The notes under the pieces were generated by a model that was not told the origin of the DNA, made no database searches, and saw nothing but the letters and a program-made list of their open reading frames with translations. From Acidobacteriota bacterium (GTDB taxonomy: Bacteria > Acidobacteriota > Aminicenantia > JBFLYD01): a stretch of 51,755 bases of DNA. Position 1 is the stretch's first letter. Each line of letters starts with the position of its first letter. Below are positions 952 through 4,516 of the stretch, in pieces. Both the position numbers and the translations under genes were made by a program. Where the stretch lies: the NCBI GenBank assembly GCA_040756905.1, contig JBFLYD010000068.1, positions 1 through 51,755 on the forward strand, read 5' to 3'.

Positions 952-1752
952 TTATAAGATTTCGAATGTTAATGTTGCCCAGAAACTTTCCCACTCAATT
1001 TCAGGAGTTTTTAAAGAGGGAATCATATGTATGGTATGAATATACCAGATTCCCGAAGAAGTTAAGTCGATTTTTGCATTTCCTTCGCTATCAGTTTGTG
1101 TTTTATATATTTTTCCCAGTTCTTCAGAATTTCCATAAGAGATAGAAGCAGAAGGCAAAGGTTTTCCATCATAAAATATCTTAATCGGCAATATATCTCC
1201 TGATTTTAAATTATATGGATTTAATTCCGGAATGATCTCAATTTCATGTCCTAAAATCTCCTTAAAAATTTCACTTTTTTTATCCCCGATTTGTATAATG
1301 GCTTTAGCATATTTTGAATATTCCTCTTTTCCTTCTTTATCATCCAATCCTTTTAACTTTCGTAATTTAATAATTTCTGTTAAACCCTTATGTTCTAAAT
1401 AATAATTAAAATCTTTTGCACTTAGTTTTATAAAAAGTGGTTTCAATATCAGTTCAATTAGATATGTTCCTTCTTGATTTGTTAAGATATCAAATAGAAG
1501 CGATTTTTCAGTTTTTCTAAATTCCTTAATCTCAATTTTTTCACCAGAGTTAATTAATGAGCATCTTTCTATTCTGTCAGGAGATATCGGTGCTTCACTT
1601 TCTGGAAATTTATCTCCAGTGTTGCAGTAAACAGTAATGTTTTTTCCAGCTGGTAAATTGTATGATTTAAGAACAAGCCAGAAATCGTGGGAAAAGATTA
1701 ATGAAAAAGGTATTAACGTAAAAATAAAAAAAATAAAAATTTTATTTTTCAT
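952..1752 (-). CDS. DUF4198-family exported protein
   Basis: A signal peptide (residues about 1-22, hydrophobic core FIFFIFTLIPFSLIF) is followed directly by HDFWLVL. This exported HDFW start is the hallmark of the DUF4198 family, whose members are periplasmic and often lie near metal or copper functions. The body is beta-rich with a carboxypeptidase-regulatory-like stretch near the end (TDSEGNAKIDLTSSGIWYI). Length about 266 residues fits the family. The start is placed at ATG 1752 because GAGGA lies 7 bases upstream; a TTG at 1755 is less likely. It stands alone between the big flavoprotein gene and a repeat. Specific function is unknown; metal handling is only suggested by the family. Confidence 0.75.
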   Translation of the reverse strand: MKNKIFIFFIFTLIPFSLIFSHDFWLVLKSYNLPAGKNITVYCNTGDKFPESEAPISPDRIERCSLINSGEKIEIKEFRKTEKSLLFDILTNQEGTYLIELILKPLFIKLSAKDFNYYLEHKGLTEIIKLRKLKGLDDKEGKEEYSKYAKAIIQIGDKKSEIFKEILGHEIEIIPELNPYNLKSGDILPIKIFYDGKPLPSASISYGNSEELGKIYKTQTDSEGNAKIDLTSSGIWYIHTIHMIPSLKTPEIEWESFWATLTFEIL

Positions 1753-1807
1753 CAAGTCTCCTCAAAATGTAAATTTTTCATTATATTATTACCATTTTTT
1801 TATACAT

Positions 1808-4516
1808 TTACGAAGAAGTTTTATTCAGAAAAGAATTTCCTATTGCTCCTAATATTTCCAGAATGGTTTTGAAGCTAATAGTATTTCTCCATATTTCTTT
1901 ATAGTTTCTGTTAGCAGAAACACAATCAAATAAGGCTTCTTTCAGTTTAGCATCATTTTTTGCTTTTTCTAAAATTGATGGCATCAATTTGAAGTTGCTG
2001 AATAAAATAGCCAACCTTCTGACCAATCTTCCATAGGGAAGGTCTTCAAGAACATCGTCACAGCTTTCATAAAATTTTTGAAAAGCCCCCTTTGATATTC
2101 CTACTTCTATCATAGTATATGCTGCTTTAATACCTGTTATTATCCCTGCATTCACACCCTTGCCTTTGAAAGGTCTTATGAGTCCTGCTGCATCTCCTAT
2201 TATTACATACCTATCGCCAAACATACCTTGAGCGGTTGAGATGGGGAATTTTCCCTTGAAATAATCCATCTTTTCTTTTAGAGTCTCTATCCCTGGAGGG
2301 AGTTCTTCTTTTACAGGAAGGTAATCGAGAAATTTATCCATTGAATCAGAAGTTATTCTTTCTCCAGCAATGTTTATTGTAAGATGATTTCCTTTTGGAG
2401 TTATAGCACCGAACTCAATTTCTTTAAACGAGGGAAGAAAGGCATGTATTCTATTTCCAAATTTATCCATAAATTCCTGTCCTGGGTGCACTTTGGTAAC
2501 AATCGAACTTAAAAATCTTGGTTGTCGGTAAGGGGTGACTCTTTCAAAAATTTTAGCACTTCCATCATCCAGCCCGAAGGCACCTACAACCATATCAGCT
2601 TTAGTATTGCCATTTTCGCTGTAAACTATAACTTTGTCAGAGAGAAATTCCAGATCCACCATTCGAGCATTTATAACTTTTATTCCCAATTTAGCTGCTT
2701 GATTTAACAAAAATTCATCGAATTTTATTCTCCTGATAGCATAAGAGGGCTCGCTCTGGCCATCCAAGAGAATACTGTTTAAATCAGAATGAAGAATATA
2801 TCCCACAATTGTTCTCTGGACCAGATTATGGGGAAAATCTATATTAAGTTCTTTTTCTAAAATTTCTTTTATTGGAGGAGAAAGAACTCCTGCACATTGA
2901 TTAAATTGTCTTTCTCCTTCAAATATTTTTCCTTCATAAATAACCACTTCTATATTTTTTCCATGCATTCGAGAGAGTTTTTTTAATGCAATGGCACATC
3001 CGCATCCTGCTGGGCCTCCGCCGATTATTACAACAACTGAACCATTTTTCAGAGACTTAAGATTTTTTTCAGAGCTCATCTTTCTATAACTCAAGGTTAG
3101 AGGAATTTTTTTTGATAAATTCTTATCAATAATTGTTTTATTTCTCTCAAAAAGCCTCCTTTTTAAATTTATCCAGATGGTCAAAAAAATAGATGAAAGC
3201 ATTGAGATTTGTAGAACAGGGTTCAGGGTTCTGAAGAAAATTCTTTTGTACTCTATATTTCCAGTGAACATATTCCAGAGAATATTTTTTAAGAGAGTAG
3301 ATGTATACCCTTTAGAAAGACCTATTCGTAGGTGACTCTCCACTACAAATGCAAATCTGGAAATGAAATCATTGAAATAAAAGAGCAATCTTCCGTAGTA
3401 ATTATCAACTATTATCTTTTTTGCTTTTTTGTAATATTCATGTTTGAAATTCTCTTCGGATATTCCATAGTTAATCGCTGCTTCTGCTGCCAGACTTGCT
3501 GTGATAAGAGCGGACTCTATTCCATTTTTGTAATATCTTGAGCAACTGGCATCTCCTATTATGACTAATCGATTGGTATATGGCTTTTTGGCTGGAGTTG
3601 TAGCTATTCTTGGTAGGCAGTGACAGTGTTGCAAGGGAAAAGACCAGTTCTCGGGTAACATTTCCTTCATGTGGGGAAAATTTAAGAATTTCTTCAATTG
3701 CGAAAAAGTAACATCTTTTTTTCCCACAAGAGTTAACGTTAGAAATTCTCCTTTGGGGACAATTGCCACAAATCTTAGATTGTCAATTCCCATGTTGAAG
3801 ATATAAATATTATTTCCAAATTTTTGTTTTATAAACTCTGAATCAAGTTTTATTTCAGTTTGAAATGTTTTTAGAGTTTTTGGAGGTTTATATCCAAAGC
3901 CCATATTTTTCATCTTTTCCATTAAATTGGTATTTAGGCCGAAAGCACCAACCACTAAATCAGCTTCTACGTATTTGTTGTTATTTCCAACTCTCAAAAT
4001 TGTCTTACTCTCCAGGTTTGGTGGAATCTCTATGGAATTTACTCTTTCATAGTAAACCTTCGCGCCCATTTTCGTTGCTTCTCTTAAGAGGAAATCATCA
4101 AAGCTAATATTCTTAGTAATGTTGGAAAAAAGAGGCCCATTTCCCCTAAAAACAGTGGCGATTTTATTTCTTTTCAGAGGATGGGTAAGGAGCAGTCCTC
4201 CTTTAATTGTTTTCATGTAATATCCTTCTACTCTGGATTGGGCAATCTCTTGGGGGAGAGCAATTCCAATTTTTTCCATTTTTTCTATAAGCGTTTCTGA
4301 TATTACCCCTGCGCAGTAGTTACAACCAGGTGGACCACTCCGAGAGAAATATTTTCCCTCGTAGATTTCTACGGATAAATTCAATTTCTTTTCTCGAGCC
4401 AGTTTTAATAGATAAAATGCAAAAAATGCACCAGCAGGACCTCCACCAATTATTGCAATTCTGGAATTGTCAGTAAGTTTTAAAGAATTCTTTGATTTAG
4501 AAAAAGTCTTTTTCAT
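1808..4516 (-). CDS. Double-length geranylgeranyl-reductase-like FAD oxidoreductase (tandem internal duplication)
   Basis: The 902-residue protein contains two complete copies of a geranylgeranyl-reductase-family flavoprotein, which is normally about 400 residues. Copy 1 has the FAD dinucleotide fold GGGPAG at residues 24-29, then GCNYCAGVI (C65, C68) and the second FAD contact IIGDAS near 320. Copy 2 has GGGPAG at about 499-504, FNQCAGVL at about 539 and IIGDAAG later. A hydrophobic linker (residues about 433-450, LQISMLSSIFLTIWI) joins them. Such enzymes reduce prenyl double bonds or act on other large apolar substrates at the membrane. Copy 1 lacks the GKG loop after GDA that copy 2 keeps (PFKGKGVN), so one half may have diverged in activity. 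Substrate is not deducible. Confidence 0.85.
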   Translation of the reverse strand: MKKTFSKSKNSLKLTDNSRIAIIGGGPAGAFFAFYLLKLAREKKLNLSVEIYEGKYFSRSGPPGCNYCAGVISETLIEKMEKIGIALPQEIAQSRVEGYYMKTIKGGLLLTHPLKRNKIATVFRGNGPLFSNITKNISFDDFLLREATKMGAKVYYERVNSIEIPPNLESKTILRVGNNNKYVEADLVVGAFGLNTNLMEKMKNMGFGYKPPKTLKTFQTEIKLDSEFIKQKFGNNIYIFNMGIDNLRFVAIVPKGEFLTLTLVGKKDVTFSQLKKFLNFPHMKEMLPENWSFPLQHCHCLPRIATTPAKKPYTNRLVIIGDASCSRYYKNGIESALITASLAAEAAINYGISEENFKHEYYKKAKKIIVDNYYGRLLFYFNDFISRFAFVVESHLRIGLSKGYTSTLLKNILWNMFTGNIEYKRIFFRTLNPVLQISMLSSIFLTIWINLKRRLFERNKTIIDKNLSKKIPLTLSYRKMSSEKNLKSLKNGSVVVIIGGGPAGCGCAIALKKLSRMHGKNIEVVIYEGKIFEGERQFNQCAGVLSPPIKEILEKELNIDFPHNLVQRTIVGYILHSDLNSILLDGQSEPSYAIRRIKFDEFLLNQAAKLGIKVINARMVDLEFLSDKVIVYSENGNTKADMVVGAFGLDDGSAKIFERVTPYRQPRFLSSIVTKVHPGQEFMDKFGNRIHAFLPSFKEIEFGAITPKGNHLTINIAGERITSDSMDKFLDYLPVKEELPPGIETLKEKMDYFKGKFPISTAQGMFGDRYVIIGDAAGLIRPFKGKGVNAGIITGIKAAYTMIEVGISKGAFQKFYESCDDVLEDLPYGRLVRRLAILFSNFKLMPSILEKAKNDAKLKEALFDCVSANRNYKEIWRNTISFKTILEILGAIGNSFLNKTSS

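Follow-up and report, generated by a model that had tools for sequence, protein, structure and literature searches.

Geranylgeranyl reductases (GGRs) are known that act on menaquinone, archaeal lipids and sterols (PMC10821996, PMC12004948). They carry an active-site cysteine, which is Cys47 in the GGR of S. acidocaldarius (PMC10821996, PMC6309074), and those shown to reduce prenyl substrates carry the motif YxWxFP (PMC6309074, PMC12004948). Here, we describe a protein encoded in a stretch of 51,755 nucleotides (the window: contig JBFLYD010000068.1 of assembly GCA_040756905.1, from an Acidobacteriota bacterium of the class Aminicenantia) that contains two GGR-like units in one chain, the N half and the C half; proteins or domains of the one or the other kind are referred to as N types and C types. 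We find that this tandem protein is a real, conserved and unusual subfamily of a known superfamily, that the tandem form is common within the subfamily, and that the N half carries a signature of four cysteines.

The gene starts with ATG and continues uninterrupted over 902 codons with no internal stop codon (Table 1). Among the NCBIfam models, the best was TIGR02032 (GG-red-SF), which matched both halves in two stretches and scored 145 bits for the whole chain, 87.6 bits for the C part and 61.3 bits for the N part; its curated cut-off of 158.8 bits was reached neither by this protein nor by eight other N, C or fused proteins. As a sequence-only reading of the gene had proposed, the protein is a tandem fusion of two GGR-like flavoproteins, each with a GGGPAG motif (residues 499-504 in the C half) and a CAG motif, and the two second-site motifs that it had distinguished were found one in each half. 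It had also proposed that a hydrophobic linker joins the halves; instead, the linker is polar (mean Kyte-Doolittle hydropathy of -0.92), and the hydrophobic stretch in front of it forms the helix that ends the N domain; in L003 and L010, where the N gene is unfused, the gene runs through the equivalent region. A search of the organism's own genome (2.56 Mb, 97.8% complete) with the whole protein returned a single match, the fusion itself, and a profile search of this genome returned no further match to the GGR model at an E-value of 1e-10.

A scan of genome contigs with the single window protein gave no relatives, and a scan with the C type gave 176. The best 80 of these, with loci picked by the patterns RPFKGKG[IV] and [HYQ][YF]N[QP]C[LVA]GVL, were combined with the window and seven further loci and, minus four duplicates (L088, L091, L092 and L110), yielded 84 distinct C-type loci. 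Intact N-C fusions were present in 39 of these loci (the window included), and separate N and C genes in the same locus in 32, i.e. 27 with N followed by C, two with C first and three with the genes on opposite strands; six loci had no N type in the locus and seven were cut or broken. The genes of 24 of the 27 N-then-C pairs overlap or lie at most 30 bases apart, as judged with automatically chosen starts. For L097 and L155, both counted as separate pairs, the contig begins inside the N gene; in L097, moreover, 2.7 kb and further genes separate it from the C gene. Thus, the double form, for which the sequence-only reading had suggested a search of other genomes, is widespread, and one open reading frame (ORF) together with the 39 intact fusions bears out its view of a true fusion without a frameshift. 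To our knowledge, ordinary GGRs are normally single-unit proteins, and for these the statement that family members are normally single holds; it fails for this subfamily, in which the units are usually paired or fused.

The hosts of the 84 loci are Planctomycetota (29), Chloroflexota (23), Aminicenantes (ten, including the loci from the window's class), Nitrospinota (four) and others including Zixibacteria. Anammox bacteria, which are anaerobes living on ammonia, are represented by six genera (Brocadia, Kuenenia, Jettenia, Scalindua, Loosdrechtia and Anammoxibacter), and all ten anammox-clade genomes searched had a copy of fused length, with further N types in four of them. Among 396 genomes sampled from the window's phylum, the N profile matched 24 (E-value 1e-20) and the C profile 14 (E-value 1e-40); by score, eight of the 14 are true C types and the rest N-type cross-hits. 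All eight true C types are accompanied by an N type, either within the C gene or next to it, two of the eight being divergent pairs. In total, the pairing of N and C types is well supported. The stricter rule that C occurs only beside N was dropped because of four genomes with C and no N: while the N type is elsewhere in the genome for two of the six C-type loci without a local N, the other four are all from Nitrospinota, and in these genomes the only match in a search with the N profile was the C gene itself, at the strength of an N-versus-C cross-hit. In these loci (L144, L149, L158 and L164), the lone C type lies beside a conserved NAD(P)-binding DUF2867 protein (by clusters, with Pfam on L158 only). 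A literature search that covered titles and abstract openings, with most subscription journals outside it, found no report of the tandem protein or of an iron-sulphur (Fe-S) GGR.

We compared 93 N-type rows, which were defined by one stretch above 60 bits and a length above 380 residues, cysteines playing no part in the selection, with 83 C-type rows (L114, in which the C gene is broken, has no row) and 21 ordinary GGRs, all from the window's phylum (33 loci gave 22 sequences, and one mis-extracted row was dropped); the GGR of S. acidocaldarius stood outside the alignment. Cys65, Cys298 and Cys300 are present in 93/93 N-type rows and Cys68 in 86/93 (Ser in six and Gly in one). In the joint alignment, the Cys68 column is that of the single cysteine of the GGRs (20/21), corresponding to their active-site cysteine, and of the C types (Cys541, 83/83, an invariance that, like that of RPFKGKG, is partly built in because both motifs picked the loci). 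By contrast, column 65 holds a cysteine in 0/83 C types and is a gap in 20/21 GGRs, column 298 holds one in 1/83 C types and 1/21 GGRs, and column 300 in none. In an alignment-free count, CxxC[AGLS][GEA] and CxC were both present in 86/93 N types, 0/83 C types and 0/21 GGRs.

The flavin loop PxxGxG has its Pro in 60/83 C types and 14/21 GGRs and its Gly in 83/83 and 18/21, respectively; N types instead have Arg327 (91/93) and Lys330 (93/93), and Arg124 and Trp414 are also present in 93/93 N-type rows. Because the N half has the four-cysteine signature and a rebuilt flavin loop and the C half keeps a GGR-like one, these observations indirectly support the division of labour suggested from the sequence. 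The other suggestion, that one half is merely structural, is not supported for the window protein, in which both halves keep GxGxxG and GD. Across the rows, Gly24 and Gly26 are kept in 92/93 and Gly29 in 93/93 N types, and Gly499, Gly501 and Gly504 in 83/83 C types. In the Planctomycetota clade, the GD aspartate is gone from six fused N halves. Moreover, an extra N gene is present in this clade at 11/39 fused loci (one of them cut), and Ser68 was found in five extra N genes and one fused N half. With GD lost in fused N halves and Ser68 mostly in extra N genes, it looks like duties are divided between the N copies of this clade.

The model of the whole chain had a mean predicted local distance difference test (pLDDT) value of 85 and a predicted template modelling score (pTM) of 0.55, which suggests that the halves are well folded and that their relative placement is uncertain. 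Values below 50 were confined to the N terminus, residues 460-483 of the linker and the loop 60-66 with Cys65. Modelled separately, the N half had a pLDDT of 81 and a pTM of 0.84, with residues 56-65 below 50. According to VIA-align, the best match in the PDB is the GGR of T. acidophilum (3OZ2) for the C half (Z 34.0, 361 residues aligned, 3.1 Å) as well as the N half (Z 29.3, 359 residues aligned, 3.1 Å), and FixC (7KOE chain C) ranks second, below GGR, for both. The top match by Foldseek was 3OZ2 for the whole chain and the halogenase Mpy16 for the N half, for which 3OZ2 was ninth.

Sixty genomes of the window's class (window included) were compared. Two further genomes contain the fusion, i.e. 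G059 (891 residues) and G011 (886 residues); in G002, the N and C genes are separate and overlap by four bases (ATGA), and in G019 they lie in one frame, 12 bases apart, with a stop between them. By this search, the other 55 genomes have neither the fused nor the paired form, and contain one N-type relative (G051), ordinary GGR-like proteins (G045, G049 and G056) or otherwise no match. Absence from close relatives had been named in advance as evidence against the fusion; the relatives turned out to be mixed, and fused and separate adjacent forms in one class show a possible origin of the fusion rather than its refutation. Plausible precursors, the adjacent genes, thus coexist with the fusion in the window's class, most of which has neither.

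N and C are paralogous, and a BLASTP search with N found C in the same chain at 31% identity. In a tree of 13 N types, 10 C types and 21 GGRs, each kind formed a single group (support 100/99 for N, 100/99 for C and 100/100 for GGR), and an earlier tree with three GGRs gave the same grouping. With midpoint rooting and no outgroup, N and C are nearer each other than to the GGRs and are likely sister groups; that the trees themselves show this was dropped, because an unrooted tree with three groups cannot tell which two are sisters. Over 69 pairs, the distances among N types followed those among C types (r 0.85, against at most 0.09 in 30 shuffles), a result that joint inheritance of N and C would produce but that shared species history alone would give as well. 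With cut and broken genes left out, at least nine switches between the fused and the separate state are needed to explain the C tree, and starred branches force three of them; fusion or splitting therefore probably happened more than once, the tree fixing neither number nor direction. The window's C half lies outside a well-supported clade of nine other Aminicenantes, and its own placement is weakly supported.

Among the 84 loci, genes for a Rieske protein and cytochrome b lie within 10 kb in six (three of Aminicenantes, two of Chloroflexota and one of Scalindua), and Pfam confirmed one or both of these proteins in every one of the six loci. The other neighbour clusters common to at least three groups were only two large regulator families, a repeat-type protein and a Crp-like regulator. 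No neighbourhood was conserved over all loci, the thiamine genes of Aminicenantes and the gene sets of Planctomycetota being local to their lineages. In the window's class, cytochrome b (PF13631) is present in 5/5 genomes with the pair and 6/55 others (Fisher test, 8.5e-5, kinship ignored); counting the N-only genome G051, the numbers are 6/6 and 5/54 (9.2e-6, kinship again ignored). Menaquinone as substrate was set aside for this class, in which MqnA/D (PF02621) was found in 0/60 genomes and MenB in 3/60, with neither in the five pair-bearing genomes. UbiA proteins, present in 58/60 genomes of the class, are uninformative on the substrate. G000, G002, G011, G019 and G059 have a bc-type cytochrome b and no match to MqnA/D or MenB, so their quinone, if any, is unexplained by these two markers.

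Some N types have partners other than the C type. In two loci of the window's phylum (L078, 2106-4709; L079, 1982-4591), an NDH-2-like NADH dehydrogenase is joined to the N type in one chain. The N type is fused to a cyclic-nucleotide-binding domain in one locus, and genes for such domains overlap the N-type end in L073 and L074. In five loci (L016, 6348-8465, and L080-L083), the N type is followed by a C-terminal domain of ~190 residues that is alike by eye and has no Pfam match. In Scalindua L140 (128-11317), a set of Rieske, NAD(P) oxidoreductase, cytochrome b and multihaem genes comes first, next a lone N gene and then the N-C fusion; genes for electron transfer flavoprotein (ETF) lie 6 kb beyond it. 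In the window, a DUF4198 protein with a hydrophobic N terminus (952-1755, minus strand) is encoded directly downstream of the fusion. Two genes downstream on the same strand is a Crp-like cyclic-nucleotide-binding protein of 190 residues (102-674) in which no helix-turn-helix domain was matched; Crp-like proteins are also near the C type in L114, L138 and L141 (Pfam check on L138 only).

Table 1. Features of the tandem gene and its product (window coordinates; HMM, hidden Markov model; FAD, flavin adenine dinucleotide)
Feature	Position	Strand	Basis
Tandem flavoprotein gene with N-type and C-type GGR-like halves, 902 residues	1808..4516	-	ORF, NCBIfam search, model
N-type half, residues 1-455	3152..4516	-	HMM 735 bits (window protein among the rows used for building); own model pTM 0.84; 3OZ2 Z 29.3
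GGGPAG, residues 24-29, FAD-binding motif of the N half	4430..4447	-	Sequence motif
GCNYCAG, residues 64-70, with Cys65 and Cys68 (N half)	4307..4327	-	Cys65 93/93, Cys68 86/93 N-type rows
CxC, residues 298-300, Cys298 and Cys300 (N half)	3617..3625	-	93/93 N-type rows
GDASCSRYYKNG, residues 321-332, second flavin motif of the N half; RxYK[ND]G replaces PxxGxG	3521..3556	-	Lys330 93/93, Arg327 91/93
Hydrophobic C-terminal helix of the N domain, residues 433-455	3152..3220	-	Helix 433-464 in model; hydropathy
Polar linker, residues 456-490; low model confidence 460-483	3047..3151	-	Hydropathy, model
C-type half, residues 491-902	1811..3046	-	HMM 718 bits (window protein among the rows used for building); 3OZ2 Z 34.0
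NQCAGVLS, residues 539-546, Cys541 aligned with the GGR catalytic-type Cys	2879..2902	-	83/83 C-type rows; motif also used in locus selection
GDAAGLIRPFKGKG, residues 774-787, GGR-like flavin loop of the C half	2156..2197	-	Alignment; RPFKGKG also a search pattern

The best explanation as a whole, which we hold with slightly less than even confidence, is that the protein is a two-flavin reductase of a membrane lipid (isoprenoid or quinone) in which the cysteine-rich N half handles electrons and the C half handles the substrate. In this scheme, an old pair of paralogous flavoproteins of the GGR/FixC superfamily would have stayed neighbours, with fusion into a single chain in several lineages. 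Each half probably binds FAD, and the helical C-terminal tails may hold both on the membrane surface. The C half, with its GGR-like loop and single catalytic-type cysteine, would most likely reduce or dehydrogenate a membrane lipid, e.g. a quinone, in its isoprenoid chain or ring; family knowledge and the respiratory association, which comprises the NDH-2-like fusions of the N type, the Rieske and cytochrome b genes nearby and the co-occurrence with cytochrome b in the window's class, point to such a substrate. The N half, with GCNxCAG, CxC and a Lys in place of the loop Gly, would most likely carry a cysteine-ligated metal or Fe-S site, or redox dithiols, beside the flavin, as the conservation of its cysteines suggests, and would pass electrons to or from the C half. 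Fusion would fix a 1:1 ratio and shorten the path between the flavins. A more far-reaching version, which we put forward as a conjecture that is rather doubtful as it stands, is that the N half represents a branch of Fe-S (or dithiol) flavoproteins so far unrecognised within the GGR superfamily and that the N-C enzyme, as an electron relay suited to anaerobes, reduces or dehydrogenates membrane quinone or isoprenoid and is wired to the bc-type respiratory chains of Aminicenantes, anammox bacteria and Chloroflexota.

Several observations weigh against the two-flavin lipid reductase. Cys68 is replaced by Ser or Gly in 7/93 N types, the loop with Cys65 is of low confidence in both models, and the mutual placement of the halves is uncertain in the model of the whole chain. 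YxWxFP is present in 0/93 N types and 0/83 C types vs 13/21 GGRs (at its position, the window protein has RFVAIVPKG in the N half and EFGAITPKG in the C half); since it is missing from both halves, the substrate may differ from that of prenyl-reducing GGRs. At the thresholds of the phylum sample, the N type occurs without C in 16/24 N-type genomes, and this, together with the four Nitrospinota genomes with C and no N, indicates that neither needs the other everywhere. Moreover, 78/84 loci have no bc genes in the stretch covered, many stretches being short and the counts having no random-gene baseline. Finally, with no MqnA/D or MenB in the pair-bearing genomes of the window's class, a menaquinone substrate is unsupported there.

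The same unpaired N types fit a plain two-step isoprenoid reductase, in which the halves reduce different double bonds of one lipid with no electron transfer between them and the cysteines are structural, e.g. a Zn site. GxGxxG, the GGR fold and a cysteine aligned with the catalytic one of GGRs, present in both halves, speak for this explanation too; however, N types lack the PxxGxG loop glycine that all C types and most GGRs have, and three extra invariant cysteines call for a reason, so that we regard it as possible although fairly unlikely. The matches to halogenases raise the question of whether the protein is a lipid reductase at all or rather a flavin monooxygenase, halogenase-like or protein-modifying enzyme (QhpG/LodB-like) of the same fold. 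The best sequence matches in the PDB are halogenases such as PltA, the QhpG, LodB and UbiH models score at E-values below 1e-10, and the window protein passes the Pfam cut-offs of Trp_halogenase (34.6, cut-off 21) and FAD_binding_3 (31.5, cut-off 22). The NCBIfam cut-offs of halogenases and monooxygenases were not reached (CmlS, 44.5 of 900 bits; QhpG, 62 of 240; UbiH, 51.4 of 392.2). This explanation is distinctly unlikely, given that TIGR02032 is the best NCBIfam model, that VIA-align ranks GGR and FixC first, although Foldseek puts Mpy16 first for the N half, and that the hosts include anaerobes such as the anammox bacteria.

The six fused N halves without the GD aspartate would suit an N half that is mainly a scaffold for the C half in an internal pseudo-dimer, in particular as four of them have a second N gene in the locus, L163 has a cut one and L129 has an N-type match elsewhere in the genome. 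Nevertheless, the flavin motifs are intact in the window's N half, and Cys65, Cys298, Cys300 and Lys330 are invariant in N types of which 54 are not fused to a C type, which makes a mere scaffold improbable in our view. We give equally little weight to a FixC-like ETF-quinone oxidoreductase that would pass ETF electrons via the flavins to quinone and leave lipid chains unreduced. In its favour, FixC ranks second among the folds for both halves, and ETF-like genes lie within 10 kb in L140 of Scalindua (by Pfam) and L119 of Chloroflexi (by similarity); however, these are only two of the 84 loci (the ETF search covering the surroundings of the loci), and GGR ranks above FixC. Finally, separate genes in G019 and G002, and no second assembly of the species having been seen, could hint at an artefact in the window, i.e. 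a misassembly or an overlooked stop codon between two genes. With 39 intact fusions of similar length across many assemblies, we rejected an assembly or frameshift artefact, the chance of which is close to negligible.

Altogether, these observations define a conserved two-flavin protein of six anammox genera and several poorly known phyla that has at best been named 'GGR-like' so far. The four-cysteine signature is the part of the finding most deserving of attention at the bench: if the four cysteines hold a cluster, a second cofactor would be added to a large superfamily of lipid reductases, and a concrete enzyme would be available for unknown quinone or isoprenoid chemistry in anaerobes. In addition, fused and separate forms in close relatives provide a clean model of adjacent genes becoming one protein.

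Compared to known systems, the fusion shares the fold of both halves, GxGxxG, the catalytic-type cysteine and the GD motif with the archaeal GGRs of T. acidophilum (3OZ2) and S. acidocaldarius (3ATQ), and differs from them in that it has no YxWxFP, two units per chain and an N half with three extra invariant cysteines. The GGG/GEG motif of archaeal GGR is GKG in the C half and absent from the N half, whereas tested GGRs carry GGG, GEG or REG where the C half carries GKG (PMC6309074). FixC, i.e. the ETF-quinone oxidoreductase of 7KOE chain C, is the second-ranking fold match of both halves and is a quinone-linked flavoprotein, but ETF genes lie near only the two of the 84 loci mentioned above. 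MenJ and Bsr, the menaquinone and sterol C-24 reductases, are bacterial GGR relatives that act on membrane lipids (PMC12004948); Bsr keeps YxWxFP, unlike the fusion (PMC12004948), and the model of MenJ is far below its cut-off on the fusion (23.8 of 700 bits). The NDH-2-like fusions in L078 and L079 differ in that the partner is NDH-2-like rather than a C type; like the tandem protein, they join an N-type module to a C-terminal flavoprotein partner and represent another two-flavin fusion.

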